A stretch of 64,000 nt of DNA from Toxorhynchites rutilus septentrionalis. Lineage: Eukaryota > Arthropoda > Insecta > Diptera > Culicidae. Below the pieces are notes generated by a model. That model ran no database searches and had not been told where the DNA came from. It saw only the letters and a list, made by a program, of their open reading frames with translations. Positions 9,164 through 42,692 of the stretch are shown here, in pieces; the first letter of the stretch is position 1, and each line of letters opens with the position of its first letter. A program made the translations under genes and the position numbers. The DNA lies in assembly GCF_029784135.1 (NCBI RefSeq), contig NC_073746.1, positions 54,782,097 to 54,846,096 on the forward strand, given 5' to 3'.

Positions 9164-9255
9164 TCAGGGACAGGACAGGCTTTCACATTCCTCATCTTCG
9201 CAAATATCGCACAGTTGAGCCACTATGCCTTGGTATGATTTGACGGCGAAGCGAT
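9164..9255 (-). CDS. TEP exon 15 (C-terminal tail, stop)
   Basis: The acceptor TTTCAG precedes 9255, and the phase joins codon G|AT to exon 14. It encodes DRFAVKSYQGIVAQLCDIC, an acidic stretch, then Cys-rich ECESLSCP and TGA at 9164-9166. A cysteine-rich tail after the last macroglobulin domain is a known feature of insect TEPs and supports this end. The longer open frame that stops at 9280 reads through the preceding intron and lacks this tail. Confidence 0.85.
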
Positions 9256-9311
9256 CTGAAATTACTCATATTTAATTAACTAGTGAGGTTGACAAAACCA
9301 TTCATAATTAC

Positions 9312-9465
9312 CTAGGTCGTACAAATCATACACAACAACGTTAGCGGGACGATTATTTGCAACCTTGTACCTACGGTAAGCGGTGACTCGGAAGCAACTA
9401 GCTTCTGGACTCAGGCTGTTATAGTAAACAACAACGGAAGTAGCGGCGAATCGAAGTTCAGTTTT
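9312..9465 (-). CDS. TEP exon 14 (MG8 region)
   Basis: Begins after acceptor TTACAG and ends at donor GACCTAG|GTAATT. It encodes KTELRFAATSVVVYYN and a Cys-Phe-Arg-Val-Thr strand, ending in VVVYDLYDL, the conserved end of the TEP MG8 (receptor-binding-like) domain. The 63-bp intron before it (9466-9528) is in frame and open, which is why a simple ORF call runs through it. Its GTAAGT donor and the improved match to TEPs favour splicing. Confidence 0.85.
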
Positions 9466-9528
9466 CTGTAATTGACAGGTAAAAGATATTAATCGAATTT
9501 GTGAGAAGTCTAGATCAAATACACTTAC

Positions 9529-10805
9529 TTGAATTTGAGGGTAGCGGGATAGATCTTGGACAGAGTCCTCGTCAGCAACGAGCCCACTCGGGAAGAATAC
9601 TTCAATCATTGCCATGTTCGATCTTTGATATGCTTCCCGTGGAATATATTTCACACATACTTGCAAGTGCTGTACGTAATAATTGGAACGCTTCAACACT
9701 TCCACGTTTATCTTGAAGCTCGGTCTGGCCCGTTCAATGCTCATATAATATTGATAGGCCACTTGGAACATACCGTAACCCACTCCGACGATTTCAACCC
9801 GTATCTGTCTAACGTGGCTTGGAATATCAAGCTCTTGAATACTAAATGTATCATTTTTGTCGACGTCAAAGGTGTGGGTTCTATAGGGTTTGTGCCAAAT
9901 AGTGACTCGATAGTCATTTTTCTTTGATGAAATTTGGGCAGAAAACTTCGTTAGTGCCTCCAATCCAACAATTGTGTCTTGTACTCCCCCGTAACTGCCC
10001 TGTCCGTAACGCTGCTGAGTTAGCCATTGTACAATTTCCATCACCCCAATCACTACATTGTTTTTCATTAACGATAGAATTGCATATCCAGCGATTTCAA
10101 CACTTGCGGATGTCCTGTTCCAGTAACGGAGACCATTTTCTCCATCAAGTATCGACTGATCAATAAGATCATCAAGAGCTTGTTTGGCCTTCGGATGACC
10201 AGCCAGCGAAAAGGCATACGTTGTCAGAGCTAGATCATATGAATCGTCGATTTCATCGTATTTGCCCGATAAGAACCTCAACGCTCTCCGAACCGTGGGG
10301 GTGTGATTAGCAGCGATATCGGGATTCTCCAAAAATGCTATCAATACATAAGAGGTGAGTGCAATGCTGTTGTTACGTATTCCACTTTGAATATCTGCAT
10401 GGTAAACTTGTCCTACTTCCTCGAACCTTCCATCCGTTTTTTGAATATCCGCTAACCAATTGAATGCATCGGCTATAACTGTTTCGTCTATATCAATATA
10501 TACAGACGCCAATTTGAACGATTTTGCCACAAATGCAGTCAAGAAAGTACTGCCTTCTGAGTCTAGACGACCCCAGACGCTGAACGAACCATCAGGATGC
10601 TTAAACTTTAACTGATTCTGATAACCAGTTTGGAGGTATCTGAGGGCTTTGGATTTCACACTATCTGCTACCACGCCTGTTTCGGAGAGGTAATCTAATA
10701 TGACAATATTCGGCACGAAACTCAACATATTTAATTCTCCACAAGTATGACTCGGTGGATTAATCAGATTACCGAGATTCTGCACGGTTGTACCCAGGCA
10801 GTTTG
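9529..10805 (-). CDS. TEP exon 13 (thioester-like domain, CUB, start of MG8)
   Basis: This is the largest TEP-body exon, 425 codons plus a split codon. It starts NCLGTTVQNLGNLINPPSH and carries the position of the thioester motif as T-C-G-E-L-N-M, where active TEPs and C3 have G-C-G-E-Q. The Cys remains but the Gln acceptor is Leu, so the internal thioester cannot form. The alpha-alpha toroid follows (FVPNIVILDYL, HPDGSFSVWGR, ADIQKTDGRF). After it come a GGVQDTIVGLEAL helix, CUB strands and the start of MG8. Length and order are otherwise normal for an insect TEP. Acceptor CTTCGTAG at 10806; donor GTAAGT at 9528. Confidence 0.9.
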
Positions 10806-10875
10806 CTACGAAGTGAGAGAACAGAAGATCAGTTTCAGTACACGTGTTGGGACGAGATGAAATTGTGTTACCTAC

Positions 10876-11616
10876 CATCTAGAGTGAACTTTATTTGCAA
10901 GGACCCTTCATCGATTCCTCTCGGAACGTCGATATCGATCTTGAATTTTTTCTTGCCTGGTCTACCAAGCTCAATGAATCTTGCTTCGTTCTTCATGTAT
11001 AAATGACTTTCTGGAGTGACATGCAAAATATGCTCCACCGCATCAGACGCCAACAAATTTTTGGCTTGGACCTTGATCGCGATGTCTCCCAATTTTTTAG
11101 CTCTTATCATAAATGAAATGGTTTTCCCAATACCGCTGGGTGTAACAACCGTCTTCGTAAGCTGAGTAGTTGTCTCATTAATAACAGCACGCAACGATTG
11201 ATGAACGGTAGCTCCAACGAACTCAAGCTCGTCTCTCTTGTTGAACATTGTCACATCCGTTAGAAGGTCATTTCCAATGAAATTATACAACGTGACATGG
11301 ATAAGTGTCGTTTCGTTGCGTTTCAATGAGTATGGGTGGTTGACGATTATGTAGAATGGTTGTTTGACGACAAAATGTTTCGATTTCTCAGGAATACCAA
11401 GACCCAAAGTTGGACTGAGCGCAAATCCAGACAACTGCCATGACGTTATCGTATCCGGAACCGTATCCGAGACGCTTGTTTTCTTTCCATCCATCGAGAA
11501 ATGTCTCCACATCCACGTCTCTGGAAAGATGGTCCTGATGAGTATTGGCTTCCGAAGTAGTTTTGTTATTCCAGAACAGCAAACGGCAGCACGAGTGCTT
11601 GCCCCGCGGGATCGCA
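10876..11616 (-). CDS. TEP exon 12 (linker, MG7, start of CUB)
   Basis: Opens with a short basic, Cys-containing segment (RSRGASTRAAVCCSG) where TEPs have their protease-sensitive or bait-like region. The strongly conserved IFPETWMWRHFSMDG follows, then MG7 strands (WQLSGFALSPTLGLGI, FYIIVNHPYSLKRNETTLIH). It ends FTLD with split codon G|CA. Acceptor GTTTTAG at 11617; donor GATG|GTAGGT at 10875. The next intron is 70 bp (10806-10875). Confidence 0.88.
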
Positions 11617-11679
11617 CTAAAACCATGAAAGTACATTAGAGCCTGCGTAATTATTATTCACATTATCTTCTCTACTCAC

Positions 11680-11722
11680 GAATATCTTGCTTGATGGCTG
11701 ATCTCAAAAAGAGACCCGCCGA
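11680..11722 (-). CDS. TEP exon 11 (43-bp microexon)
   Basis: Encodes SAGLFLRSAIKQDI between acceptor CTTATAG and donor ATTC|GTGAGT. Phase 0 in and phase 1 out fit exons 10 and 12 exactly. Too short for ORF finders. It contributes to the linker before the FPETW block. Confidence 0.8.
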
Positions 11723-11791
11723 CTATAAGTGAAAGAAACATAAAAAAAAGTTAAAAGAGATTTGGTTTGTATAATGCATAATGGAACTTAC

Positions 11792-12004
11792 GAATGAAAA
11801 GTCATCTGTTTCGTTGGACGGGGGATCGTAAAGGGCCAGATCATTGAGGACATCAGTTTTACTGAACCCGTACTTTTGGTTATCTACAACGAGTACGCTT
11901 TGGTCTATGGCCTGCAATGCGATATAAGAATCTTCCGCTGCCGCTACGTCTACATAGATATCCTGTCCTGGTCGATAATCTTCCCTGTCTAATGCCATCA
12001 TTAC
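11792..12004 (-). CDS. TEP exon 10 (MG6)
   Basis: Starts VMMALDREDYRPGQDIYVDV and runs through IALQAIDQSVLVVDNQKYG to DDFSF, matching TEP MG6 (compare the family's YRPG and DQSVLLL motifs). Acceptor CATTTCAG at 12005 and donor CATTC|GTAAGT at 11791. Both ends are phase 0. Its 5' neighbour lies 22,018 bp away at 34023. Confidence 0.88.
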
Positions 12005-12352
12005 CTGAAATGAGCATTTTGTTCTCAATTTAGTATATGCTTTATTCTTGTTGAAATATATCTGTAAGGAAGGCGTCCTTTGCAGTCGAATTAAGACAAC
12101 ATGGCATGATATACTAGAACTGTTGAATAATTAACTCTTTATTATCACATGTTCTGTTTTTCATTTGAAAACTGAAATAATTATTCGGTTATTTGCATTT
12201 GTTTTATTTTTTTTGAGTACTTACCCTTTTCTCAACAAATATGCTTGAAATTATCCTTACCTTAAGGAATTATGTCGCGAGGAACAAAAAAGTTAACCAA
12301 AAAATACAAAAAAAATTATCCACTCAAATATGCTTAGTGCCATTTTGTTGTG

Positions 12353-13609
12353 TAAGGAGTGTATCGAATAGTAGTCTGAAATAATTAACACGTTGTTACA
12401 CACAAACGGGTGATTTTTTTTGTCGTGTAATCAGAGCACACTTTGTTTACATGTCAAAAATCGAAATACAAGTAATTTAGTCGCGTTCGAAAAGTTGTTT
12501 TCAAAATGGCGCGGATTGATTTGAAAACTAAAAAGAAAATTCTGCACAATTGGTGCACCGAAAAGGGTGTTATATACCACAAAATAGCAAAAAAAAAATC
12601 ATAGTTCGGCAATAAGTGTTCAATAAGTGAACACTTTGCAAAGTTCGGCAATAAGTGTTCTTTCGAGGATCTCAGCAGAAGTGGACGAAACCCTGGACCA
12701 AGTAATCCCGAATCGGACCGAAAAGCTGTAAATTATATTATGATTGTAAAGCGGATTATACAGAGACATGGTCTAAAGACAACAAACAAGCAAAAAGTGG
12801 CCAAACAAACACCGGTGCAGCAAAATCGCGCTAAAACACAAGCTCGAAAGCTATATTAGCGTATTTTGAACAATCCAAACTAGTGCATTATCATGCATGA
12901 CGAAACATACATAAAAGAACATTCCAGAACGCTGCAGGAACCTCAATGTTATACCAAATCGATTGGAGAGAGTGTACCATTTGCGGATACGTTTGTTGCG
13001 ATGGAAAAATTCGGCCAAAAAGTGCTCGTTTGGCAAGCCATTAGCACGTGTGGCATACTATCGTCAACTTTTTCCACAATAGGGACTATAAATGCTCAAA
13101 TTTACGTGGAAGAAGGTTTGAAGAAGAGATTACTTCCACTTTATAGAAAGCACGTGGTTCCTCCTCTATTCTGGCCGGATTTGGCATCGGCACAATATGC
13201 CAAATCCACTCTACAATGGTTTTCGGAACACAATATCATGTTTGTCGAAAAATACCTCAACCTACCTAACTGTCTCCAGCTGCTCCCAATTGAACGTTAC
13301 TGGGCAATCATCAAGGCCAAGTTCAAGAAGGAAGGTACAGTGTCTAAAAATATGTCAGAGTTCAAAAAGAATTGGTCTGCAGCGTCCAGAAAGTGCACAA
13401 AGGCTACTGTGCAGAATTTGATGAGCGGTGTTAAATCTAAGGTTCGATCATTTTTTTTTTGGAAACCAACAATAAGCTTGATTTTTTTCATTTTATTGTT
13501 GTGTAAACTTAATATTCTTTAATAAAATTCCCTTATGTCAACACTTTCTGAACGTTTTCAGTTTTATTTTGATGTTTAAGTTTAAGACTACTTTACGATA
13601 CACTCCTTA
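12353..13609 (+). mobile_element. DD37E element inside the TEP intron
   Basis: TIRs of about 24 bp share TAAGGAGTGTATCG, at 12353-12366 and as the reverse complement at 13596-13609. TA is at both ends. The element is 1.26 kb and encodes a broken transposase. Confidence 0.8.
12506..13522 (+). pseudogene. DD37E transposase pseudogene
   Basis: An N-terminal HTH frame begins at about 12506 (MARIDLKTKKKILHNWC) and is soon broken near 12590. The catalytic half is open from 12893: MHDETYIKEH (first Asp), WPDLASAQYAKSTLQW (second Asp) and LLPIERYWAIIKAKF (Glu). There are 37 residues between the last two acidic residues. Another stop lies upstream of the catalytic frame. It is closest in layout to the 22344-23636 element, but its TIR differs, so it is a separate family. 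Confidence 0.75.
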
Positions 13610-13987
13610 CTACGCCGTTCCAGCCATTTTGTTCAATGAAGAAACATTATTTCTACTATAAGAAATTGATTATATCTCGAGAACGGTTGGTTCTAGGATA
13701 AAACGTTATATATCAGCTATTCATGTTGAATCGCATGTAGATTCTATTTTTCATGTTTCTTTTCTCAAAAGGTTACAACAGTTCCAACAGTTTTGTCAAA
13801 CATCATATTCTAATCAGATAACTTAATTTTAAGTTACGATTTTTTGAAAGAAAGAACAATGATTTTGAAAACGTCCTTTTGAAAAATCAGTCGTAATTTA
13901 AATTGGTCATATGATAATGAAAATTGGGATTATGGATAGTTTCCATCATAGGCACCAAGTTTCAAAAAACTGAAGAGGATCGGGTAA

Positions 13988-14830
13988 AAAAGTCACAGGA
14001 GGGTTGTCGCATGAACTTTCCTTGGGAGAAAAAAAATCGTTTCATATTTCAAGTCATTTTAACACAATAGCTACCATATACAATTTTACTTTTACAGTTG
14101 TGCTAAAAATTTTACAATACATGATCGGTAATTGATATGAAATCTCACGAAGCAACCAACATAAAAATTCCAAATTTAAATTTTATTTCATTCTATCAAG
14201 CATAAGTTCTATTCAGTTCATTGAAACATCATTCTTCAATCAACCCATCGAAAGATTCTTATTGGAACGAAAATAACAAAAAAAACACTCGTTCATCGCT
14301 CCCAACTTATTCGCCAGCACGTATGCAATCAGCAATGCCCACAATGAGCACTATCCATTTGTGCGCGTCGTTAGTTAAACTATCGGCCACGAGGGTATTT
14401 ACATGCTGATTACCCTAAGACACCTTGGATTTGAAATCTCTGTTAGGGAATACATGTCAGTGGGAAAAAAAGCTCCCCCTACTTTCATGTGTTTGCAATT
14501 CCGATTTCCCCCAGGCAGCTTGGTTTTGATGTCTCTGTTAGGGACTCGCCGCATGTGTCGTAGATTTCGACCAATCAGAAGTAGGTATTTCCGTTAAGAT
14601 AAGGGTTGAGATTTTTCAATTGTTCGATAGTTAGTTTCATGACATATACTATTTTATTCAATGTAAAAAATTGTTATGGAGTGCCGAAATTGATTGACGC
14701 AAAAATCTCATTAAACCATCATGAAATAACTGAGCAATAAGCATTTGAAATTGGACAATTTTCACGGTGCGCTCGATTTTCGATTTTCAATTTGTACCCC
14801 AATATGTTCCCAAAAGACGTAATCCTAGGT
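13988..14830 (+). repeat. Repeat family A, copy 1 (internally deleted)
   Basis: Nearly identical to 19068-20518. The opening GTCACAGGAGGGTTGT jumps straight to CGCATGAACTTTCC, a segment about 600 bp further on in copy 2, so this copy has an internal deletion. A short frame at 14403-14597 is shared, with only a silent change noticed. A CCAAT-type motif (CGACCAATCAG) is at about 14567. The right end is GACGTAATCCTAGGTC. Inverted copies lie at 62115-62375 and 63668-64000. Confidence 0.75.
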
Positions 14831-14929
14831 CAAAATTGTTGTTTTTTTTGAAAGATTTTTTGTGGAATTGCTCTAAAGTAAACCTGGTAAAACCATTTGT
14901 TATTTCCTTGTTCGAAAGGTTCCGTGATC

Positions 14930-15300
14930 AAAGTTGATGTTATTTTGTTTTAAAATGCCCAAAAGCCATAGAACACCATGTCACCGGCAGAAGCTACCAT
15001 CACATTGCTGTTATCTTTCGGCAATGAGTCGATTATCACAACGGTTCAATAGTTTTAAAACTGGGCTGTATCGAAGATTAATCAAAATCGAGGGATTCTT
15101 AAAAACAAATAGAGAATGAGTTTTTCCATCCATGTGTCACAATATCAATGTTCTGGAGTGCACTATCACCTGACCTTAAGCCAATAGTATATCTGTGGTT
15201 TATTTTGAATGATGAGATTCATGAAAGAAATACACCAACCCTTTAACAACTACAGCACCTAGTTGCAACTGATATACTGAAACAGACCGGATCATATAAA
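14930..15300 (+). pseudogene. Tc1-like transposase relic
   Basis: About 15150-15220 reads VLEWSALSPDLKPIVYLWFILN. This matches the Tc1 block WPAQSPDLNPIE.LW, with the catalytic Glu replaced by Val. Flanking frames are broken. Confidence 0.55.
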
Positions 15301-15407
15301 ATACCCGTAAAAAACAACTGAGATATATCCATTTTCATTCTAGAACATACAAACAGATTACAGGCATTTTTCAGTTTAGGCATTTTTGTTTGTGGCTGTT
15401 TAGTTTT

Positions 15408-16645: not shown

Positions 16646-16901
16646 ATTTAGAACGACAGATATAAAATCGTGTAGCATAGTCTATATTTACAACTAAAAT
16701 TCCACCATTCTCCTGATGATTCTGAAATTTGGTTTTATTGCTGTCGTAGCTTGGAAGTAGCAGACAGCGCATGATGCCCACTTGGGGAGGGAAGTTTTGA
16801 TTTTCTGTTTACATAGAAAGAAAAGTGCAGCTGATCATATGTAAAGCCCGGCCAACCAGGAACATCAACGCCGAAGTCGAATTTCCACGATACTAAAGTA
16901 A

Positions 16902-17620: not shown

Positions 17621-17629
17621 CTCTATATT

Positions 17630-18052: not shown

Positions 18053-18053
18053 T

Positions 18054-29755: not shown

Positions 29756-29764
29756 AAGGAGCCG

Positions 29765-32700
29765 CGGTTAATCTTAGGTGACTTCAACTCCCATGGAACA
29801 GCATGGGGGTCACTCTACGATGACAACCGTGCCACGTTGATTTATGATCTGTGCGACAACTTCAACATAAATACTGGGGAAGCAACTAGGATAGCCAACC
29901 CTCCTGAACGGACAAGCATGCTAGACATATCTCTCTGCTCTTCTTCATTATCCCTGGATTGCACATGGAAGGTAATCCAAGATCCCCACGGTAGTGATCA
30001 CCTACCAATAATTTTATCGGTCGCCAATGAATCAAGTTTGCGAGAGTCAGTCGATATTGCGTATGACCTCACGAAGAATATTGACTGGAGAAAATTTGCG
30101 GAATTAATATCTGAAGCAATAATTTCGATGCATGAACTTCCTCCCCTTGAAGAGTATAACTTTATATCAAGTTTGATTTACGATAGCGCACTTAAAGCTC
30201 AAAAGAAACGTGTACCCGCTACCACTTTCCGACGTCGCCCTCCATAACTTTGGTGGGATAAGGAGTGCTCAAAGGTCTATCTTGAAAAATCATCCGCTTT
30301 CAAAAAATTCAGGAAAACTGGATTAGTGGAATGGTTTCTAAAGTACCAAGCTCTAGAAATCAAACTAAAAGGTTTGACTAAAGCAAAATAGCGTGGATAT
30401 TGGCGGAAATTCGTCAATGGTTTGTCAAGGGAGACCGCTATGAGTACTCTTTGGAGTACGGCCAGGAGAATGCGTGGCTGGAACCATACCAATGAACGTG
30501 AGGAATACTCTGACCGTTGGATTTTCAAATTTGCAAGGAAGGTTTGTCCCGATTCTGTTCCTGCACAAAGCGTCGTACGCGATATTCCGATCCAATGCGA
30601 TTATGAGAATTTTTCGATGGTAGAATTCTCAATTGCCCTCCTCTCATGTAACAATTCAGCTCCGGGGTCGGACAAGATTAAATTCAACTTGTTGAAGAAT
30701 CTTCCCGACTTGGCAAAACAGCGTTTGCTGAACTTGTTCAACAAGTTTCTGGAACTGAATATTGTCCCGCATGACTGGAGACAAGTGAGAGTGATAGCCA
30801 TACGGAAACCCAACAAGCCGGCTTGCGATCACAACTCGTATAGGCCGATTGCAATGTTATCCTGTATTCGTAAATTGTTAGAGAAAATGATTTTACTTCG
30901 TTTGGACAAGTGGGTTGAAACGAACAATTTGCTGTCAAATACGCTTGGCTTCCGCCGAGGTAAAGGGACGAATGATTGTCTCGCGCTGCTAACTTCTGAA
31001 ATCAAAATCGCATTTGCTCGCAAAGAACAAATGGCTTCCGTATAGATGAATCAGTTTCCATGGAAATTCTCTCAGAGAAGCTTCATAATCGTGGACTTTC
31101 ACCAATTCTCAATAATTTCCTGTACAATTTACTGTCAGAAAAGCACATGATTTTCTCTCATGGCAGCTCAAAATCTTCTCGTTACAGTTTTATGGGCCTA
31201 CCACAAGGCTCTTGTACAGTTTTTACGTTAATATGGATGATTGTCTAACTAGAGACTGCACGTTGACTGCACTAGCAGACGATGGAGTTATTTCCATCAC
31301 GGGTACTAATCCCGTCGCTCTGCAAAAGTCGTTGCAAGATACCATAAACAATCTGATCACGTGGGCCCTCAAGCTGGGTATCGAATTCTCTACGGAGAAA
31401 ACTGAAATGGTCGTTTTTTTCTAGGAAGCACGAACCCGCCCAATTCCAGCTTTACCTATCCGGCAAAGCGATCCAACACTCTATGTTTTTCAAATACCTG
31501 GGTGTATATTTTGATTCTAAATGTACCTGGGGGAGACACATTGCGTATCTGTAAAAGAAATGCCAGCAAAGAATCAATTTTCTCCAAACAATTACCGGAA
31601 CATGGTGGGGTGCCCATCCAGGAGACCTCATTCAGTTGTACAAAACAACGATATTATCAGTGTTAGAATATGGCAGTTTTTGCTTCCGATCAGTTGCCAG
31701 AATTCATATTCTAAAGCTGGAGAGGATACAATATCGTTGCTTGCGTATAGCCATGGGGTGTTTGCATTCGACACATACGATGAGTCTCGAAGTCTTGGCA
31801 GGAGTACCCCCGCTTACTCTTCGGTTCACAGAATTATCCTTAAGATTTCTCATTCGTTGCAAGATCATGAATCCATTGGTGATTGATAACTTCGAAAATC
31901 TACTCCAACTGATTCCTCAGTCAAGTTTTATGTCTTTATACCATGAGTACCTTATACACGACGTGCACCCTTCATCAGGCATCTCCAACCAAATTTGCTT
32001 CCCATACTTTTGCAATTCCTCTGTCATTTTTGATCTGTCTATGCGACAAAAAATCAATGGAATCCCAGATCATCTTCAATCCAATGCTATTCCGTCGATA
32101 TTTTCGAAAAAATATGGGAAAGTTAGATCTGATAAAATGTTCTTTACTAACGGTTCATTCATAAACGGGTTCACTGGCTTCGGTATCTTCAATGAAAATT
32201 CCAGTGCCTCTTTCAAACTCAAAGATCCTTGTTCCGTGTATGTCGCAGAAATGGGTGCGATATACTATGCTCTAGGGATCATTGAAACACTGCCCATCGA
32301 CCATTATTTTATTTTTTCAGACAGTCTCAGCTCAACAGAGGCAATCCGCTCAATGAAAGTTGATAAACGCTCATCTTATTTCCTAACAAGAATAAGACAA
32401 CTATTGAGTGTTTTGGTCGAAAAATTATTCAAGATTACCTTAGCATGGGTTCCCTCTCATTGCTCGATTCCGGGGAATGAGAAAGCGGACTCGCTAGCTA
32501 AGGTGGGCGCTTCAGAAGGCACACTTTTTGAAAGGCAAATTGCCTATAATGAATTTTTTCACATTCCTCGTCAGGACACATTCGTTAGTTGGCAGCGCAT
32601 GTGGAGTGAAGATGAGTTCGGTCGTTGGTTACACACGATTATCCCTAAGGTCTCGACGAGTGCATGGTTCAAGGGATTGAATGTAGGTCGTGATTTCATT

Positions 32701-32982
32701 CGCGTGATATCTCGGCTCATGTCCAATCACTACAACCTAAACGCGCATCTCTATCGCATTGGGCTCGCAGCAAACAATCTTTGTGATTGTGGCGATGGCT
32801 ACCACGACATCAAGCATATTGTCTGGTCGTGTATCCGGTTCCATGCTACTCGCTCTCAGCTCTCTATAGCACTGAGAGTAAAAGGCAGACAATCGGATAA
32901 CCCCGATATCTTAGGTAGCCGTGATCCTGATCTTCTGCTTCATCTATACCTGTTCCTCAGAAACGCCGATGTCAACATTTAA
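29765..32982 (+). pseudogene. I-clade LINE ORF2 (APE-RT-RNase H), 5'-truncated and broken
   Basis: Begins inside the endonuclease at LILGDFNSHGTAWG and goes on with GSDHLPI. The RT part reads SAPGSDKIKFNLLKN, SYRPIAMLSCIRKLLEKM and LADDGVISITG (the xADD catalytic box). A well-kept stretch at 31636-32982 gives FSDSLSSTEAIRS and WVPSHCSIPGNEKADSLAK, the RNase H signature typical of the I clade. The C-terminus is RNADVNI. Stops at about 30244 and 30389 and frameshifts near 30945, 31040, 31215 and 31420 inactivate it. The tail at 32983-33240 is probably its 3' UTR. Confidence 0.85.
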
Positions 32983-33240
32983 TGATGTTTCCTTCGTTGT
33001 GTCCCTGTTTCATATCCCTCCTATCCGATCTATAAACTTTTACTTAGTCGCGGCAATACATACACACACTCTTTACAGATGCACGGGCCGAAGGTGCAGT
33101 CCACTGAACATTCAACAAGAGCCAAAGGTTGTACCTCTCATGACAACTCTACACGAGCTGATGATTGCACCGGCTAGTGACCATTCTATCCTGGATTCCT
33201 CGAGTCGAGAAGACGCACCACGCTAGATTTGGGGTACAGA

Positions 33241-33835: not shown

Positions 33836-34022
33836 ATTATTCATTTTGCGTGTAGGACCTGTAAGTTGGCATCCAAGTTCCACTAGTTCCTGCTATGTAA
33901 GAAGAACGGAAGTTATATCATTCGATTAATTGTGCCTAACGATAAGAAAATGATCAGAACATGATCAAATTTATAAAGTGAATCATACAAATAGATTTGC
34001 AGTACAATAAGTTCTTACTTAC

Positions 34023-34278
34023 ATTGTTATTGAACGTTTCGAAGTTCAGGAGCAAGCTGTCGTGAATGAGCAGTCCGTCATCAACATTGAACACCGAGAG
34101 TCGTGCAATAGGTGCCATCTCGGGTGTTAGTCTTACTTTGAAGTTCAAACTTTTTTTGTTCGGCACGACCATATTGCTCGCAGTGACAACACGTCCCCTG
34201 GCCGTAATTACGTACCAAAATCGTTTCATATATTTAGTGCACCTCACACCGAAGACAACGTCCTTATTGGAGCGAACT
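34023..34278 (-). CDS. TEP exon 9 (MG5)
   Basis: Encodes VRSNKDVVFGVRCTKYMKRF and then the V-V-x-A-S-N and V-P-N-K-K-S strands, to LLLNFETFNNN, the end of TEP MG5. Acceptor ATCGATAG (34279) and donor AACAAT|GTAAGT (34022). An open frame continues upstream into the 62-bp intron. Without splicing, exon 8 would meet TGA at once, so the intron is required. The intron after this exon is 22 kb. Confidence 0.88.
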
Positions 34279-34340
34279 CTATCGATTGGAATGGAATCAC
34301 AGTTATCCGGGATATGTATCGGGGGGCATAATGAACTCAC

Positions 34341-34441
34341 CTGTATCTTGGATTGAGTGTCACCCGTATATAATGTGCGCTTTCTGATTCTATAGCTTCA
34401 ATAGTGCCAATTTGGCCATAGTTTACCGAGTCGTAGGTCGC
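34341..34441 (-). CDS. TEP exon 8 (101 bp, end of MG4)
   Basis: Encodes ATYDSVNYGQIGTIEAIESE and HYIRVTLNPRY. Acceptor TGTTTAG, donor TACAG|GTGAGT. Phase 0 in, phase 2 out. Missed by simple ORF calls. Confidence 0.85.
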
Positions 34442-34501
34442 CTAAACAGTTTATAAAGGTTTAGAAATAAACAAAAAAAAAGTTTTGGATAATCCATTTA
34501 C

Positions 34502-34791
34502 CTCGATTGTTAACTCCGAAGCTTCCTCTGGTACATCTAGATATAGCGTTGCTAAGCCATGATCATCAAGATTAGCATTTATGGTTTGTCTACCGTCGGT
34601 CGGATCTCCGTTATAGTAAGCTACCACTTCTACCGTTCCAGGGCCTTCAGGAGTGTCACCATAGTGATCCTTTACTGAGAGTTTCACTAGATATGGTACA
34701 CCTGGAAACAATCGATCCAATGGTCCATCAAACTCAATTCTGTTCGGATTACGGAACACAGGAACGTATTGAGTGATGTCAACCACACGAT
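34502..34791 (-). CDS. TEP exon 7 (MG4)
   Basis: Encodes RVVDITQYVPVFRNPNRIEF, FPGVPYLVKLSVKDHYGDTP and LYLDVPEEASELTIE. PGVPY.VKL..KDHYG is a conserved TEP MG4 pattern. Acceptor TTTATAG (34792), donor ATCGAG|GTAAAT (34501). Confidence 0.9.
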
Positions 34792-34853
34792 CTATAAATA
34801 CAAATTGAACCTGTTAGTCATTTATATATTCATTTTCACACAGTCCACCGTAC

Positions 34854-35178
34854 CAGTATGTTTTTCCTTAATGCTTGCCTTGATTATCACGTCCTGATAA
34901 ACACTGTCGTCTTCAATTAGTACGTCATCTTCAAGGTCAAACTTAACAGTCGCCTTCCCATTTATACTCATCGTTTTGGTTCTGAGTGGCGCTAGATCAT
35001 CTTCGTTCGTAAATAGTCGAAGAAGGAGTGTTCCCTCGGTTGGGTGACCGAATGTGTATTCTGTGTCGATCGTGATCTGAATCTCTTTGTTCTCTATAAG
35101 CGAAAGTTCGGTGGGGTAGACCTTTACGTAGAATTTCGGCAGATCATACTGACGCACTTCGAATACTTGAACTGTCGT
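34854..35178 (-). CDS. TEP exon 6 (MG3)
   Basis: Encodes TTVQVFEVRQYDLPKFYVKV and onwards through TYTFGHPTEGTLLLRL-like strands to IKASIKEKHT. VxEYxLPKFxV is the hallmark start of MG3. Acceptor CTTCCAG (35179), donor CATACTG|GTACGG (34853). Confidence 0.9.
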
Positions 35179-37083
35179 CTGGAAGTGTTAAGTTATTGAT
35201 TGGAAATATACCTTTCTGCTGTTTTGTATTGAAATGTTCATTACACAGCGACGATAATGTCAACGATGACGAAACGTAATAATAAACCATTGACTTGAAC
35301 GCCATGTCCAAAAAAGATCCAAAACACGTACATAAAAAGCTGCTATCAGAAATCGAAATATCCGAACTTATCAACATAATTGAGAGACATTAGTTCGAAC
35401 ATAATTAAAAAAATATAAAGAAACGTATATACGTAACTCGCGGAAATTGAAACGTTGCAATACTTTTTGAACAGACCACGTATACCTCATTTCAACTCAG
35501 CTCTTACATATCTTCGGAAACTCAAAACAAAGTGGTTCGGAAGTTGGAAAAAACGCAAATCCGCAAAAACGCAAGTTGGAAAAAACGCAAAACGAAAATC
35601 CGCAGTGAAAAAAACTTTTGAGTATCAGGCGTTTAGATGGTGGAATGGTAAGCTGAGGACCATTACATAATGCTTGCATTAAAAAAATAGACAAATTTTA
35701 CCATTTTTTCGTGCGTTCACCTTAACACCTGGTGATGAGACCACCTGTGCATCGTCAATCGTCAATCACATGTAGCCCAAAATTTGACAGCGCTATCTGC
35801 GGTTGAACTGCTGAAGTTATGGCGAAAATATTAAAGCAACTGGGCTCCACGTGCGCACTTAGAGCTCCATCCCGTTGCGAAGAAAGTGGACATCGTCTAG
35901 TACTTTGAGTCCACCGGATACGCCCGTTCCGGTATCTATAGCATCCTTACACTTCTGGAGAAGAATGAGAGCGTTAAACGGAAGCCTGGTTCCGGTCGTC
36001 CGATGGTGCCACGCGATCAAAACTGCAGCTGAAGCTAAAGCAGTAGACAGAGGAAAACGTGGCTACATCGTTCGGGGCCGAGAGGTCGGAGCAACGGGGC
36101 AGACTGTGAAAAAATACACTTTAGTCACGACCGGACGTGTTGAAACAGCAATCGTGACCCAGAAACTAAGGCTGACAAAACTCCTGTCGAAGCGGAACAT
36201 TTCGGTGTCATGGACGACGAGACGTATTTAGCGCTAGATGGCATCGACTAGTAGAGGACCAGATAATTTACACCCTACACCAAGAAGGTAAGTTTCGATG
36301 TGAAGGAAATTTCCCACACCATGCTCCCAAAGAAGGGGCTTCTGTGGCTAACTATCAGCGAAAAGGAGATATCAAAGCCGTTCTTCATTCTTCAAAGTAC
36401 TTGCCGGAAGTTGCTTCCTTCATCAAAAAATATCATCCGGATGAAGGATGTGGTTTTTTGGCTGAACCTGGCCTCTACCCATTACGCAAAGAAGTCGCTG
36501 GAAAAGATGCACCGATTGAAGATAAATGTTGTTCCGAAGTCCGCCAACCCTTCGAACGTCCCCCAGCTGCAGCCCATCGAGAATTTCTGGGCTAACCTGA
36601 AGCGGAAGGTCAATAATTCTGTGGCAAAAATGGAGGAAGAACTAATAATTAAAGCTAAGGAAGGACGGAAAAATATGTCAACAAGTATGTTTTAGACAGC
36701 AATGGCGAAAATTCCGGCTAACTGCAGGAAGGCCGCTCGGTAGTGCGTCGAAATATTTTTGTAACATGATCAATAAAATTATGTTTTATGCGAAATTTGT
36801 CCCATTAAATTATCTTTTGTATTTTTTTTGTCGCTATCCAAGAATTGTCCATTTTTTTTAGTGCAAGCGTCATGTACGAAAAACGGTTGAGCATGTATCC
36901 CCTGACATCAGCATTCGGGAACTAACAACAATAATTTCGGAAATAAATTCGCACACATGTTTGAAACATATACGTTTGCAACATGCGTTAACCAAGTATT
37001 CAAATTATAAATGAATTTAGATCAGCGTTATATTGGTAATCTGAAAACAAACAAAAATCAGCCTGCCACATTTCTATACTCAC
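35179..37083 (-). other. TEP intron 5, enlarged by a transposon relic
   Basis: A 1.9-kb intron between MG2 and MG3 exons. It contains a plus-strand DD37E relic (about 35740-36790). The rest is AT-rich with no coding signal. Confidence 0.7.
35740..36790 (+). pseudogene. DD37E transposase relic
   Basis: Traces of FGVMDDETYLALDG (first Asp) near 36205 and VVFWLNLASTHYAKKSLEKM near 36450, where the second Asp is Asn (WLN for WPD). LQPIENFWANLKRKV near 36575 has the Glu at the 37-residue spacing. An N-terminal segment lies near 35880-36000 in other frames. No clear TIR found. Confidence 0.65.
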
Positions 37084-37446
37084 ATGTCCATCAACTGACA
37101 CCTCTAGGGTCCAGTTTCCCAAATTAGGAGATGACGCTAACTGAATTCCAGATGAAAAAACTCCGTTAGTTAGTGCCGCGTTCCGCCATCGCGCTATGGA
37201 GTTTCTTTTAGCATCCGAGATTCTTATCCTCACAGGGCCATTGTTCGTCACTGGTTTGGTGTCAGGATCAACCATTACGACGCGAAAGCGCATTCGATCT
37301 CCTGGGTTGTAAATAGGTTTGTCGGTTTGAATGAAAATAGACATCCGTTTCGGATTGTATACTAGGTCCTTGTATACATCAATGTCACAGGTTTCATCCG
37401 CACTAGTGATCGTCAGGGTAAAGTTATCAGCAGGTATGTCGAAAAA
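37084..37446 (-). CDS. TEP exon 5 (end of MG1, MG2)
   Basis: Encodes FFDIPADNFTLTITSADETC, then MSIFIQTDKPIYNPGDRMRF, then WTLEVSVDGH. IQTDKPIYxPGD is the diagnostic start of MG2 in the alpha-2-macroglobulin family. The true exon begins well upstream of the internal Met at 37344. Acceptor ATTCACAG (37447), donor GGACAT|GTGAGT (37083). Confidence 0.93.
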
Positions 37447-37510
37447 CTGTGAATAGCGGAAATATAATGGCTGTGTGCTCTGAAATGGAAATGCGCTTAT
37501 ATAGACCTAC

Positions 37511-37691
37511 CTCGAAGCTGATTGTTTTCAAAGCATTTCTATTGACCGTTATGGTTCTGCTGAATATCACATCCTGCGTAGAATCAGCAATAATTGATAC
37601 GTTGACTTCCAAATGCCTTGTGTATAAATTTCCAAACAGTAACGTGTAAGGAGCATTCCTTGGAATAAATCCTGATCCGAATGCGAAGTAG
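37511..37691 (-). CDS. TEP exon 4 (MG1)
   Basis: Encodes YFAFGSGFIPRNAPYTLLFG, then MG1 strands to NALKTISFE. FIxRNxxYTLxxxN is how MG1 starts in mosquito TEPs, directly after their signal peptide. Here the exon begins after acceptor TTATTCAG (37692) and joins codon AG|C from the collagen exon in frame. Reading through the intron instead gives MIITILFSYFAFG, a weak signal-peptide-like start. Donor TTCGAG|GTAGGT (37510). Confidence 0.88.
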
Positions 37692-37745
37692 CTGAATAAA
37701 ATCGTTATTATCATTTGGAATCAGAAGAATTTGTTTTCAAAATAC
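37692..37745 (-). other. 54-bp intron joining collagen and TEP coding sequence
   Basis: GTATTTTG at the 5' end, TTTTATTCAG at the 3' end. The exon 3 frame would stop inside it (TGA at 37721-37723) if unspliced. Removing it gives AG|C (Ser) and leaves both frames open. The size is normal for mosquito introns and similar to the other short introns in this gene. Confidence 0.82.
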
Positions 37746-39287
37746 CTAGATGCGTTACAGTCCAAGATGGGCGCCACCGTAGTATCGGGTTCCATAGTGG
37801 ATGTAGCTGGATGTGGATGTGGTGTCCAATGTGGTTTGGTGGGGTGTGGGTGTGGCCTCGTTGGTTTTTTAGTTATGGTTGGTGTAGAAGGGGTTGTTGT
37901 GGTTGTCATTGTTGTGGTTGCTGAAGTTGTCGACCATGGTGGACGAGAGCAATTTGATGGATGACCTGGATGTCCTGGATGTCCTGGATATCCTGGATGT
38001 CCTGGATGTCCTGGATGTCCTGGATGTCCTGGATGTCCTGGATGCCCTGGATGTTCTGGGTGTCCTGGATGCCCTGGATGTCCTGGATGTCCTGGATGTT
38101 CTGGATGTTCTGGATGTCCTGGATTTTCTGGATGTCCTGGATGTTGTGGATGTTGTGGATGTCCAGGATATTCTAGATGCCATGGATGCCATGGATGCCA
38201 TGGTTGTCCTGAATATCCTGGTTCCCCTGGAGGCCCTGGAGGTCCTGCAGGTCCTGGAGGTCCTGCCGGTCCTGAAGGTCCTTGTAGTCCTGCAGGTCCA
38301 GCAGGTCCTGTATGTCCATGATGTCCTGCGGGTCCTGCAGGTCCAGGACGTCCTGGAAGTCCTGAAGGTCCTCTATCTCCTTTAGGTCCTTGAGAGCCTA
38401 GCGGTCCTTGAATTCCCTGAGGTCCTTGAGCTCCCTTAGCTCCATCATTTCCATCATTTCCTGGAGTTCCTGGAAGTCCTGGCTCTCCTGGAGTTCCGGC
38501 CATTCCTGGAGTTCCGTCCATACCTGGTGTTCCTGCAGGTCCTTCGGCTCCTGCAGGCCCTGAAGGTCCTCCATCTCCTTTGGGTCCACTATCTCCTTTA
38601 GGTCCTTGAGGTCCTGAAGGTCCACTATCTCCTTTAGGTCCTTGAGGTCCTTGAGCTCCCTTAGCTCCATCATTTCCATCATTTCCTGGAGTTCCTGGAA
38701 GTCCTGGCTCTCCTGGAGTTCCGTCCATTCCTGGAGTTCCGTCCATACCTGGAGTTCCTGCAGGTCCATCGGATCCTGCAGGCCCTGAAGGTCCTCTATC
38801 TCCTTTGGGTCCACTATCTCCTTTAGGTCCTGAAGGCCCTAGAGGTCCTTGAATTCCTTCAGGTCCTTGAGCTCCCTTAGCTCCATCATTTCCATTAATT
38901 CCTGGAGTTCCTGGAGGTCCTGCAGGTCCTGTAGGTCCTGCAGGTCCTATAGGTCCTTCAGTTCCTGGAGATCCATCAGAGCCATCTAATCCTGGAAGTC
39001 CTATAGTTCCACTATCTCCTTTAGGTCCTGGAGTTCCTGCAATTCCTTGAAGTCCTGGAGGTCCTTGCTCTCCTTTAGTTCCATCCATTCCTGGAGTTCC
39101 AGGAGTTCCTGCCGATCCAGGAGACCCTTGCGTTCCTGGAGTTCCATCCATTCCTGGAGTCCCAGGAGTCCCTGCCGATCCAGGAGGTCCAGCAGATCCT
39201 GTAGCTCCAGTTTCTCCTTTTGAACCTTTGAATCCTGGCAATGATATTGGTGGTATTCCTGGTATTGGTGGTAGTCCTGGTATAATC
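37746..39287 (-). CDS. Collagen exon 3 with His-rich tail and Thr/Pro linker, spliced to the TEP
   Basis: Starts with split codon TT|G, then [20 protein letters not shown], a short Gly-poor hinge. About 280 residues of Gly-X-Y follow ([27 protein letters not shown]). From about 38210 the triplets become Gly-His-Pro and Gly-His-Pro-like. They are followed by [20 protein letters not shown], a Thr/Pro/His stretch, and [10 protein letters not shown]. Two Cys flank the linker. Donor TCTAG|GTATTT at 37745; the 54-bp intron leads in frame to MG1. No stop codon in 514 codons. Confidence 0.85.
37961..38210. repeat. Coding 9-bp minisatellite (Gly-His-Pro)
   Basis: About 25 units of TCCTGGATG (plus strand) within collagen exon 3, coding Gly-His-Pro on the minus strand. 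The array makes several other frames open on both strands; these are shadows. Confidence 0.85.
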
Positions 39288-39901
39288 CTGGTGAGAGTTA
39301 ATGTTTAGTCAACAATTGCAAATACATATTGCTTGAAAACAGCAAGTGAATGGTAGTCACAAAATTGATGTACAGATTTCCCTAATCAGCACATGTAGAT
39401 TCATTTCAACATTTGCGAATATAAATAGCCGCAATACGGCAACCTTTTACGATTTTTGAATATCTTGAACGTATGGTGGCAGCTACTCTAAATCACAATT
39501 TTCTTTATCATATGACCATTTCTAATTGGTACTGATTTTTTATAATGCAGACTTTTTTTTATTGTACCTTGAAATCAAGATGGCTGATTAAAATATGATG
39601 CACAGCAAAGTTGTTGGGAAACCATTGTACTATTTATGAAAAATACAATTTAAAACTGACCGCTAAAAATCTTAAGCCAAAAAATATTTGATGTTTGAAG
39701 CTTTTATATCAAAAAAGGCAATCGTAGTCGTAGGATAAAACATTATCTATAGTTTTTGATGTATATATTTTTTAATATTCCATTAATAGTAAAGACAAAA
39801 TTATTGAAATATTGTAAATTTTTAACAGGATATAAAAACTTTCAACATTCAATTCAATTTATGAGTAAGATTTTTTCACGATGTATTTAATTAACACTCA
39901 C
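39288..39901 (-). other. Collagen-gene intron 2, paralogous to intron 1
   Basis: Shares its ends and several internal stretches with 40886-41540: GTGAGTGTTAATTA at the donor side, ACTAAACAT.AACTCTCACCAG at the acceptor, and AACATTCAATTCAATTT inside. Shows that exon and intron were duplicated together. Confidence 0.75.
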
Positions 39902-40885
39902 AATTGTAACGATCCAGGAGGTCCTGCAGGTCCCGCAGTTCCAGGAGATCCTGGTGGTCCTGAAGGTCCACTATCTCCTTTAGGTCCTTGAAGTCCTGAA
40001 GGTCCACTATCTCCTTTAGGTCCTAGAGGTCCTTGAGCTCCCTTAGCTCCATCATTTCCATCATTTCCTGGAGTTCCTGGAAGTCCTGGCTCTCCTGGAG
40101 TTCCGGCCATTCCTGGAGTTCCGTCCATACCTGGTGTTCCTGCAGGTCCTTCGGCTCCTGCAGGCCCTGAAGGTCCTCCATCTCCTTTGGGTCCACTATC
40201 TCCTTTAGGTCCTTGAAGTCCTGAAGGTCCACTATCTCCTTTAGGTCCTTGAGCTCCCTTAGCTCCATCATTTCCATCATTTCCTGGAGTTCCTGGAAGT
40301 CCTGGCTCTCCTGGAGTTCCGTCCATTCCTGGAGTTCCGTCCATACCTGGAGTTCCTGCAGGTCCATCGGATCCTGCAGGCCCTGAAGGTCCTCTATCTC
40401 CTTTGGGTCCACTATCTCCTTTAGGTCCTGAAGGCCCTAGAGGTCCTTGAATTCCTTCAGGTCCTTGAGCTCCCTTAGCTCCATCATTTCCATTAATTCC
40501 TGGAGTTCCTGGAGGTCCTGCAGGTCCTGTAGGTCCTGCAGGTCCTATAGGTCCTTCAGTTCCTGGAGATCCATCAGAGCCATCTAATCCTGGAAGTCCT
40601 ATAGTTCCACTATCTCCTTTAGGTCCTGGAGTTCCTGCAATTCCTTTAAGTCCTGGAGGTCCTTGCTCTCCTTTAGTTCCATCCATTCCTGGAGTTCCAG
40701 GAGTTCCTGCCGATCCAGGAGACCCTTGCGTTCCTGGAGTTCCATCCATTCCTGGAGTTCCAGGAGTTCCTGCCGACCCAGGAGATCCAGCAGATCCTTT
40801 AGCTCCAGATTCTCCTTTTGATCCTTTGAGCCCTAGTAGTGATATTGGTGGTATTCCTGGTATTGATGGTAGTTCTGGTATAGTC
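39902..40885 (-). CDS. Collagen exon 2
   Basis: Starts with split codon GT|G, hinge [20 protein letters not shown], then about 300 residues of Gly-X-Y, ending GPPGSLQ and split codon TT|. Both ends are phase 2, so it can be added or removed without changing frame. It is nearly identical to the first half of exon 3 over 150 residues or more. Acceptor CTCACCAG (40886), donor CAATT|GTGAGT (39901). Confidence 0.85.
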
Positions 40886-41540
40886 CTGGTGAGAGTTTAT
40901 GTTTAGTCAACAATTGCAAATATTGCTTTAAAACAGTAAGTAAATGGTAGTTACAAAATTGATATACAGATTTCCCTAATCAGCACATGTAGATTCATTT
41001 CAACAACGGCGAATATTGCTCGAAAACTGTGAGTATGGATAGAGTAATTCCACACCAAATCAGCCGAATACGGCGACTTTCTACGATTTTTGAATATCCT
41101 GTACATATGGCCATCCAAAATCACAATTTTCATTATCGTATGACCAATTATAATAGGGACTGAATTTTTATAATGCAGAATCATTTTTTCTATTGAAACT
41201 CGAAATCAGGATGGCTGATTTAAATATAATGTATAGCAAATCTGTAGGGAAACTATTGTTCTAGGAAAAAATAGGAAATTAGGAAAAAACATTTAAAACT
41301 CACCGTTAAAAAATTTTACTCAAAAAAATTTCAATATTTGAAAATTCTATATCTTAAAAGGTTGTCGTAGTAATAGGATAAAACAATTAATAGTTTATAA
41401 TGTACATTTTTTTATATTACTATTCTTGAATAGGAATGTTTACGCAAAATGCTGAAATTTTATAAAAGTTATAAAAGCTTTTAACATTCAATTCAATTTT
41501 TGAGTAAGATTTTTCAACGGTGTATCTAATTAACACTCAC
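40886..41540 (-). other. Collagen-gene intron 1
   Basis: GTGAGT donor and CTCACCAG acceptor. Paralogous to intron 2 and, over its acceptor-proximal about 120 bp, to 42693-42812. Confidence 0.75.
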
Positions 41541-42692
41541 ACTTGTATCAATCCAGGAGGTCCTTGAGGTCCTGCAGGTCCTGGCGGTCCTGAAGGTCCA
41601 CTATCTCCTTTAGGTCCTGAAGGTCCACTATCTCCTTTAGGTCCTTGAAGTCCTTGAGCTCCCTTAGCTCCATCATTTCCATCGTTTCCTGGAGTTCCTG
41701 GAAGTCCCGGCTCTCCTGGAGTTCCGTCCATTCCTGGAATCCCAGGAAGTCCTGTCGATCCAGGAGATCCTGCAGGTCCTGCAGGCCCTGATGGTCCACT
41801 ATCTCCTGTAGGACCAGTATCTCCTGGAGATCCTTTAAGTCCTTGAAGTCCTTCAGTTCCTGGAGGTCCTGCGGGTCCTACAGCTCCCTTAGCTCCATCA
41901 TTTCCATCATTTCCTGGAGTTCCTGGAAGTCCCGGCTCTCCTGGAGTTCCGTCCATTCCTGGAATCCCAGGAAGTCCTGTCGATCCAGGAGATCCTGCAG
42001 GTCCTGCAGGCCCTGATGGTCCACTATCTCCTGTAGGACCAGTATCTCCTGGAGATCCTTTAAGTCCTTGAAGTCCTTCAGTTCCTGGAGGTCCTGCGGG
42101 TCCTACAGCTCCCTTAGCTCCATCATTTCCATCATTTCCTGGAGTTCCTGGAAGTCCCGGCTCTCCTGGAGTTCCGTCCATTCCTGGAATCCCAGGAAGT
42201 CCTGTCGATCCAGGAGATCCTGCAGGTCCTGCAGGCCCTGCAGGTCCACTATCTCCTGTAGGACCAGTATCTCCTGGAGGTCCTAGAGGTCCTTGAAGTC
42301 CTTTAGGTCCTTGATCTCCTTTGGGTCCTACAGCTCCGTCAGCTCCGTTAGTTCCTGGATTTCCTGCAGATCCTTTGGGACCTGCAGGTCCTGCTTGTCC
42401 ATCAGATCCTGCAGGTCCAGGAGATCCTTGGGTCCCATCAGATCCTTTTGATCCTGGTAGCCCTGTATCTCCAGTATCTCCTTTGGGCCCTGGAGATCCG
42501 TCAGCTCCTTGAGATCCTTTAGGCCCTGGAGATCCTTGAGCTCCGTCAGCTCCAACACTTCCATCATTTCCTGGAAGTCCCTGCCCTCCTGGAGTTCCAT
42601 CCATTCCTGGAGTCCCAGGAGCTCCTGTCGATCCAGGGGGTCCTGCAGGTCCTGGTGGTCCTTGATCTCCTTTTGATCCTTTGATTGGAAAC
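41541..42692 (-). CDS. Collagen exon 1 (most upstream coding exon found)
   Basis: Acceptor CCCCACCAG at 42693, then split codon |G and [20 protein letters not shown]. About 380 residues of uninterrupted Gly-X-Y follow, ending GPPGLIQ and split codon GT|. A 225-bp (75-residue) block containing [16 protein letters not shown] is tandemly repeated nearly three times. Phase 2 at the acceptor requires another exon upstream, which I could not identify. The domain is expected to form a secreted triple helix with two other chains. Confidence 0.83.

Follow-up and report, generated by a model that had tools for sequence, protein, structure and literature searches.

Within the window, a stretch of 64,000 nucleotides from the genome of Toxorhynchites rutilus septentrionalis (a predatory, non-biting mosquito that takes no blood), the fusion of a collagen domain to a complete TEP body in one chain is confirmed as a gene model, its expression being predicted only. 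According to the splice model, this is one minus-strand gene (44485-9164) with 16 exons and 15 introns, all of the latter with GT-AG sites, and its coding sequence of 7,776 nt yields 2,591 aa with the terminal stop as the only one. In order, the exons encode a signal peptide, three collagen segments, a His-Pro and Thr-rich linker and the TEP body (Table 1). The original prediction, which had described a mosquito TEP (rightly, given the species) joined in frame to three collagen exons through a 54-nt GT-AG intron, with 14 junctions keeping phase and no in-frame stop, agrees with this model: the collagen exons amount to 3,678 nt (1,226 residues), and the frame is kept over the 14 junctions joining the 15 exons from COL1 to the C-terminus. 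The signal-peptide exon, missed at that time and added here, contributes one more. The 1,345 residues proposed for the TEP body are correct once an in-frame 63-nt GT-AG intron (9528-9466) is spliced out; the TED exon without this splicing (21 additional residues) was dropped, and it should be kept in mind that the queries of two of the three homologue searches, the Pfam scan (run on a 2,612-aa translation) and the tree carried those 21 residues. COL3 has a rather weak donor (GTATTT), and transposon-like open frames can be seen by eye inside the 22-kb intron.

Table 1. Features of the collagen-TEP gene and of the supporting exon of gene X, in positions of the window.
Feature	Positions	Strand	Remarks
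Exon 1, start codon and signal peptide MVLFRLLVYCFLLTGGLVCC, then split Gln codon	44424..44485	-	phase 2 end, donor GTAAGT
Exon 2 (COL1), 126 uninterrupted Gly-X-Y triplets	41541..42692	-	phase 2-2
Exon 3 (COL2), 18-aa non-collagen lead, then 103 Gly-X-Y triplets	39902..40885	-	phase 2-2
Exon 4 (COL3), 18-aa lead, 115 Gly-X-Y triplets, GHP-type tail, linker	37746..39287	-	phase 2-2
COL3-MG1 intron, 54 nt, GT-AG	37692..37745	-	phase 2; same position in P0001, P0051 and canonical TEP genes; counterpart in gene X
Exon 5, MG1 start	37511..37691	-	
Exon 6, end of MG1 and MG2	37084..37446	-	
Exon 7, MG3	34854..35178	-	
Exon 8, MG4	34502..34791	-	Pfam match under cut-off
Exon 9	34341..34441	-	
Exon 10, part of bait-region domain (A2M_BRD)	34023..34278	-	followed by the 22-kb intron
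Exon 11, remaining A2M_BRD and beyond	11792..12004	-	
Exon 12, 43 nt	11680..11722	-	
Exon 13, A2M domain as far as TED	10876..11616	-	
Exon 14, TED with CGEL, second CUB part, receptor-binding domain start	9529..10805	-	
Former thioester site, CGEL replacing CGEQ	10732..10743	-	coordinates counted from exon start
Exon 15	9312..9465	-	follows the in-frame 63-nt intron
Exon 16, Cys-rich C-terminus and stop TGA	9164..9255	-	
AATAAA, candidate polyadenylation signal	9075..9080	-	about 84 nt past the stop
Gene X signal-peptide exon MVPFRVIVHRCFLVMLVHCQ	277..338	-	outside the fusion gene, supports exon 1; phase-2 donor GTGAGT

In the Pfam scan, the protein matched eight macroglobulin-type families (the MG4 one below the cut-off), plus one unrelated sub-threshold match, and the domains follow the order of insect TEPs (MG2, MG3, A2M_BRD, A2M, TED_complement, TEP1_CUB2 and A2M_recep). 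Residues 5-1341 of the 1,345 match mosquito TEPs of the AgTEP1 type (PDB 4d94 and 2pn5; E 1e-250, aligned with 4d94), with which the protein shares a predicted signal peptide and an MG1 after it. Unlike them, it holds about 1,226 stalk residues between these two elements and lacks the thioester Gln. The GCGEQ motif is absent, the Cys being kept and the Gln replaced by Leu (CGEL), which leaves the Cys-Gln pair of C3-type opsonins incomplete; therefore, the complement-like action that had been proposed, in the sense of a covalent opsonisation of the TEP1/C3 type, is not expected. Despite the lost thioester, the TEP body is under purifying selection, with dN/dS values of 0.31/1.59 = 0.20 (1,318 codons) and 0.30/2.14 = 0.14 (1,240 codons). 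The MCR proteins (AaMCR and Drosophila Mcr) are also TEP relatives without a thioester. AaMCR is reported to act without it, and classical thioester motifs are counted in 17 of 35 family members, many lacking them (PMC12692319); tsetse MCR bears an LDLa module in place of the motif (PMC5969219), a module with no match in the Pfam scan of the fusion protein.

The fusion TEP falls among mosquito TEPs in a tree of 39 rows (whose 38 homologues were hand-picked from 111), where it forms one clade with P0001 and P0051 (SH-aLRT 100) and groups with P0051 (96). Both are encoded by same-strand neighbours of the fusion gene and were retrieved under their NCBI names in the homologue searches (P0001 as “TEP1 allele R1-like”, with 2,074 aa; P0051 with 1,364 aa). 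The three share a Thr-rich sequence and a Cys ahead of MG1, as well as the loss of the thioester, with CGEL in the fusion gene, CGET in P0051 and NGES in P0001 versus CGEQ in the canonical neighbour. However, the stalks of P0001 and P0051 are Thr/Ser-rich and have no collagen. In the canonical neighbour, a phase-2 intron splits the signal peptide from MG1, and it is in the corresponding intron of the fusion gene that the phase 2-2 collagen exons sit; the phase of the pre-MG1 intron is the same in the canonical TEP, P0001 and P0051, and the intron has a counterpart in a fourth, broken cluster gene (gene X). P0001, P0051 and gene X have a stalk ahead of it too. No collagen was found in gene X, and the DNA comparison of its stalk with the fusion-gene collagen gave matches only in the signal-peptide and MG1 regions.

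Exon 1 is called signal-peptide-like by hydrophobicity and homology only. It is the sole candidate in a scan of about 42.7-54 kb, and its nucleotide identity with the homologous exon of gene X is 71% over 214 nt (76% over 696 nt with the flank included). That gene X exon, at 338, was also considered as part of the P0051 gene, an assignment that was dropped after gene X had been found in between; for P0001 and P0051 themselves, no convincing signal-peptide exon was found, only weak candidates.

Regarding the stalk, the Pfam Collagen match is very strong (E 3.4e-158) and the Gly-X-Y runs of the three exons are uninterrupted, as in collagen domains. Pro occupies Y in 113 and X in 105 of 358 triplets, the former being compatible with a triple helix and prolyl hydroxylation; the Pfam scan of the protein returned no trimerisation domain. 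The length of the open frame was dropped as proof of collagen, since other frames across the collagen region are also open, which makes an open frame weak evidence in a nine-nucleotide repeat. The fusion model is better supported by the kept Gly register, the conserved intron phase and the dN/dS of 0.14-0.20 in the TEP body. As for the Gly register, Gly is lost in none of the 229 triplets of COL1 and COL2, whose X and Y positions do vary, versus 10 of the 28 nine-nucleotide units (counted by eye from the list of units) of the GHP-type tail of COL3 (p 5e-11). The run of COL3 was left out of this test because it was taken to stop where Gly turns irregular (unit 1 of the tail doubles as its final triplet); in COL1 and COL2, on which the test is based, the Gly-X-Y runs take up the whole exon apart from a few terminal residues and an 18-aa lead. 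After the tail comes a Thr/Pro-rich linker of 70 aa ending in DCNAS. Between COL2 and COL3, dN/dS is about 0.76 and the Gly test alone is not significant (p 0.19). Even at third positions, the collagen cores of these two exons are much more alike than their introns, which makes conversion or homogenisation likely.

The collagen exons are built on a nine-nucleotide unit, GGA-NNT-NNA, whose phasing is visible in the synonymous codons of Pro: the CCT:CCA ratio is 87:4 at X and 21:75 at Y (p 2e-27), a contrast that holds over distinct 9-mers (17:2 versus 9:15, p 6e-4). The other collagen loci of the genome also carry Pfam Collagen repeats, but with mixed synonymous codons and no X/Y phasing (70:92 versus 110:114 when pooled, p 0.26); this pool comprises five loci (L009, which may be collagen-IV-like, and L011-L014, of which L011 and L014 overlap) of the twelve fetched (L009-L020), and none of the five is near a match of the genome A2M and TEP searches. 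This difference suggests that the collagen stalk arose from a minisatellite. A copy of another collagen gene of this genome was considered and dropped, as no donor appeared among the scored candidates: the genome searches for collagen scored 150 of 542 and 103 of 226 candidates, and in the latter, leaving aside the exons of the window itself, the sequences matching COL1 were 24-55% identical to it.

What would such a gene produce? Judging from the sequence, the most likely product is a secreted, collagen-trimerised, thioester-independent macroglobulin, although its trimerisation and function, like the “trimerising, multivalent” character originally proposed, are things that we infer. The explanation that we favour, and consider probably right, is that one gene gives a secreted chain of signal peptide, collagen repeat (about 1,030 residues in three blocks), His/Pro and Thr-rich linker and full TEP/macroglobulin body, with a minisatellite-born stalk and trimeric heads. 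The stalk exons would lie in the ancestral intron between signal peptide and MG1; the stalk itself would have been Thr/Ser-rich at first, the nine-bp minisatellite would have expanded within the stalk exon of this gene to form the collagen domain, and that exon, together with the upstream intron, would have been duplicated twice. The chains may then assemble into a collagen trimer about 300 nm long (from the rise per residue of collagen) with three thioester-independent TEP heads; anchored in a matrix or gel, this trimer would serve as a multivalent bait, trap or regulator and not as a covalent opsonin. A broader view, to which we give a little less than an even chance, is that in the thioester-less TEPs of Toxorhynchites the signal-peptide/MG1 intron is a stalk slot in which tandem paralogues carry different rods derived from repeats (in one a Thr/Ser-rich exon of 3,686 codons, in others a short Thr-rich exon or collagen), and that the triple helix of the fusion gene was born there de novo from the nine-bp minisatellite and held by selection, giving a trimeric thioester-independent macroglobulin.

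The stalk could be interpreted in other ways. Since the paralogues have Thr/Ser-rich stalks where the fusion gene has collagen, what unites them may be a long stalk outside the cell and not trimerisation, and the stalk of this same gene might be an extended, hydrated monomer that serves as a spacer or forms a gel; nonetheless, a triple helix demands Gly and a mere spacer does not, so that the exceptionless Gly of COL1 and COL2, next to a GHP tail that loses it on the same nine-nucleotide unit, makes this reading rather unlikely. Somewhat less probable still is that the collagen exons are cassettes and the main product a stalk-less TEP, with collagen forms minor or tissue-specific. Each of the three is skippable in frame, and the direct splice of exon 1 to MG1 is also in frame (hence the collagen may be optional) and would look like ordinary TEP N-termini, but, given the kept Gly register, the collagen must be in use at least some of the time, and in P0001, P0051 and gene X the intron ahead of MG1 is likewise preceded by a stalk. 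Phase 2-2 exons inserted in an intron are also the classic pattern of exon shuffling, from which one could propose acquisition from an existing collagen gene; we consider it quite improbable in view of the lack of a genomic donor among the scored candidates, the absence of the GGA-NNT-NNA phasing in the five other loci and the presence of collagen, GHP tail and Thr-rich linker within a single exon.

The unity and integrity of the gene can be questioned as well. No transcript of the fusion was found (the 27 matches were one TEP fragment at 35% and otherwise repeat-like or unrelated sequences), so none speaks against a collagen gene that stops at the TGA located 25 nt past COL3, where an unspliced COL3 would terminate, followed by a separate TEP gene. 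Yet this division is very unlikely: the 54 nt between COL3 and MG1 are too short for a promoter, a start and a signal peptide, the intron lies where the canonical neighbour has the one separating signal peptide and MG1, and the only signal-peptide exon found in the scan lies upstream of the collagen. Equally hard to credit is a decaying gene or assembly artefact without protein product, for which one could invoke the broken sister gene, the transposon-like frames in the 22-kb intron and the lack of a record in the database searched (the three homologue searches gave nothing nearer than 55-56% overall to the fusion TEP), but which is at odds with 2,591 stop-free codons, GT-AG sites throughout, the intact Gly register and the dN/dS of both TEP-body comparisons.

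As originally surmised, no mosquito TEP of this form seems to have been described: none of the 50, 93 and 27 homologues combines Collagen and macroglobulin domains in their precomputed Pfam lists, and no paper on such a protein was found in the open-licence PMC literature. Like C1q, collectins and ficolins, the protein has its collagen stalk on the N-terminal side of a globular immune module, within a single chain that is predicted to be secreted, but the head is a macroglobulin, with no C1q, lectin or fibrinogen match in the Pfam scan, and their stalks are about ten times shorter. In the complement systems known so far, defence collagens occur apart from C3-like proteins, as distinct molecules; the fusion gene holds both architectures in one chain with the covalent chemistry gone, so that what TEPs do without a thioester becomes a testable question. 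Furthermore, thanks to the codon phasing, the apparent formation of a collagen domain from a simple repeat can be read at this locus, which is rare; the GHP tail within the COL3 exon acts as an internal control, and no collagen was found in a sister gene. Finally, long repeat-rich stalks can be missed by gene prediction, as in P0001, where the NCBI model includes 727 of the roughly 3,686 open codons of the stalk exon.

The collagen-TEP fusion gene runs on the minus strand from 44485 to 9164 as one continuous model of 16 exons and 15 GT-AG introns, comprising 7,776 nt of coding sequence with a single terminal stop (2,591 residues), and an AATAAA lies about 84 nt downstream of that stop. The three collagen exons (COL1, COL2 and COL3) and the TEP body are located where the original prediction had put them, and the junctions across them keep frame; what it missed is the beginning of the gene, a 62-nt exon encoding a putative signal peptide that, as assessed by eye, hydrophobicity and homology, resembles those of mosquito TEPs (e.g., MWLFQILLGCGLIAVLCESQ). 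Pfam detects Collagen (E 3.4e-158) and, in order, the domains of a TEP; the body can be aligned to Anopheles TEP1 (4d94) from residue 5 to residue 1341 of its 1,345. Open frames named by eye as transposase-like and reverse-transcriptase/endonuclease-like occur in the 22-kb intron (34022-12005; e.g., 29756-32982) and upstream of the gene (e.g., 48539-52653).

Stalk-encoding features of the fusion gene and its neighbours (bare positions, window; G000:C3, contig)
Feature	Position	Strand	Description
Fusion gene, signal-peptide exon (exon 1)	44485-44424	-	62 nt; encodes MVLFRLLVYCFLLTGGLVCC; ends in phase 2, splices to COL1
Fusion gene, stalk	COL1 42692-41541; COL2 40885-39902; COL3 39287-37746	-	collagen exons; COL3 also with GHP tail and Thr-rich linker
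P0001 gene, stalk exon	G000:C3:54677800-54688860 (loci L028-L029)	-	11,061 nt; 3,686 stop-free codons; 29% Thr, 11% Ser; start is the best-looking acceptor, a guess
P0051 gene, stalk			52-aa Thr-rich exon before the pre-MG1 intron
Gene X	G000:C3:54752634-54782434	-	broken sister of the fusion gene; signal-peptide exon at window left end, 277-338
Gene X, stalk			Thr/Ser-rich repeat, with stops

The predicted protein is a TEP by descent and fold, although its thioester site reads CGEL, against GCGEQ in the canonical neighbour, CGET in P0051, NGES in P0001 (NCBI 'TEP1 allele R1-like') and SGEL in gene X. Such a loss is by itself nothing unusual in a TEP: according to PMC12692319, of 35 TEPs counted in Drosophila and three mosquitoes, 17 have classical motifs. 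Despite it, the body is constrained, with dN/dS of 0.31/1.59 against P0051 (1,318 codons) and 0.30/2.14 against P0001 (1,240 codons), dS being near saturation; the comparison with the canonical gene yielded no computable dS. Collagen and macroglobulin domains were found together in 0 of 50, 0 of 93 and 0 of 27 homologues in precomputed Pfam lists (about 8,000 candidates scored per search), and searches of open-licence PMC papers, by title and abstract start, brought up no such protein.

Either capture or minisatellite growth could have given rise to the collagen, and the sequence favours the latter, because of the phasing of its codons, the absence of this phasing from control loci and the low identity (24-55%) of the genome matches to COL1 beyond the window's own exons (103 of 226 candidates scored). 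COL1, COL2 and COL3 carry 126, 103 and 115 uninterrupted Gly-X-Y triplets (358 including tail pieces, 105 of them having Pro at X and 113 having Pro at Y), built on a unit of 9 nt, GGA-NNT-NNA. Of the 344 Gly codons in these runs, all but 37 are GGA; Pro is CCT:CCA 87:4 at X vs 21:75 at Y (p 2e-27) and Ala is GCT:GCA 26:0 vs 3:39 (p 8e-16), and the phasing persists on 104 distinct 9-mers (Pro p 6e-4, Ala p 2e-3). It is absent (Pro 70:92 vs 110:114, p 0.26) from five of the 12 other collagen loci retrieved, scored in runs of at least 10 triplets (910 in all, some counted twice as two loci overlap), where Gly is GGA in 373, GGT in 352, GGC in 127 and GGG in 58. The minisatellite history is read from codon phasing and one sister gene in one species. 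A repeat-rich region of the contig (G000:C3:275109282-275174339, minus strand) has stop-free frames of up to 11,556 codons with weak similarity to the collagen query.

As for selection on the Gly register, Gly is lost in 0 of 229 COL1 and COL2 triplets, while its codon deviates from GGA at the third position in the 37 of 344 mentioned, which span all three exons. In the GHP tail, which follows the collagen run of COL3 and is built on the same unit, it is lost in 10 of 28 units (counted by eye, the first being also the last triplet of the run). The difference (Fisher p 5e-11; on distinct 9-mers, 0/104 vs 6/12, p 3e-7) is indicative only, as repeat copies are not independent. Two comparisons between COL2 and COL3, whose common core differs at 9 of 795 nt, count against use as collagen, namely a non-significant Gly test (p 0.19) and a dN/dS of 0.76. 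COL2 and COL3 with their preceding introns are tandem copies, the introns being 80% identical, and the low silent-site divergence, together with cores far more alike than these introns (about 20% different), suggests exon-limited gene conversion between them. COL1 looks like an older copy, because the last 150 nt of its preceding intron are only 73% and 67% identical to the other two.

The stalk occupies a slot that other genes fill differently. A phase-2 intron before MG1, the first macroglobulin domain, is common to the fusion, P0001, P0051 and canonical genes; a counterpart, ending in CNAS, is present in gene X. In the canonical gene nothing lies between this intron and the signal peptide (SQG, donor GTCAGT), whereas the stalked genes have extra sequence upstream of it. 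The NCBI P0001 protein has only 727 residues ahead of MG1; the gene product is perhaps a TEP of about 5,000 residues. Among 61 aligned homologues, 11 of which have 0-2 residues ahead of MG1 and are uninformative, four have more than 50: Thr/Ser-rich in P0001 and P0051, preceding an ordinary signal peptide in P0095, and unrelated, reading as retrotransposon-like, in P0003. By this survey, T. rutilus is the sole species with stalks seen so far. A stalk like that of the fusion gene is not known from any other TEP.

The chain would be secreted and trimerise through its collagen into a long rod that ends in three TEP heads; its likeliest setting is an extracellular matrix or gel. Since the paralogues fill the same slot with Thr/Ser-rich stalks, the common need is suggested to be reach, hydration or anchoring, with trimerisation added in the fusion gene. 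Precedents for a role without the classical thioester are AaMCR (PMC12692319) and Mcr of Drosophila, which has roles in immunity and in septate junctions (PMC5969219).

Five TEP1-like genes are located in 54.60-54.83 Mb, in the order canonical gene (plus strand, CGEQ), P0001 gene, P0051 gene, gene X and fusion gene (all four minus). The NCBI proteins P0001 and P0051 of T. rutilus septentrionalis map to this genome with best HSPs at 98-100% amino-acid identity; among the others above 85%, identity drops wherever an intron is translated along. A tree of 39 TEPs (38 hand-picked homologues, gene X left out) groups the fusion body with P0051 at SH-aLRT 96 and with P0001 at 100. Gene X is 73-92% identical to this body, by segment, and is broken, with stops in the stalk and a stalk frame different from that of its CNAS end; no match to MG3-MG5 came up in it at E below 1. 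Near the cluster, a TEP-like locus (G000:C3:54589044-54591951, plus strand, 54.59 Mb) has several in-frame stops. Locus L005 (G000:C3:54463696-54467100, plus strand), with a macroglobulin-like match inside an uninterrupted 1,423-codon frame, may be a TEP or CD109-like gene that lacks introns.
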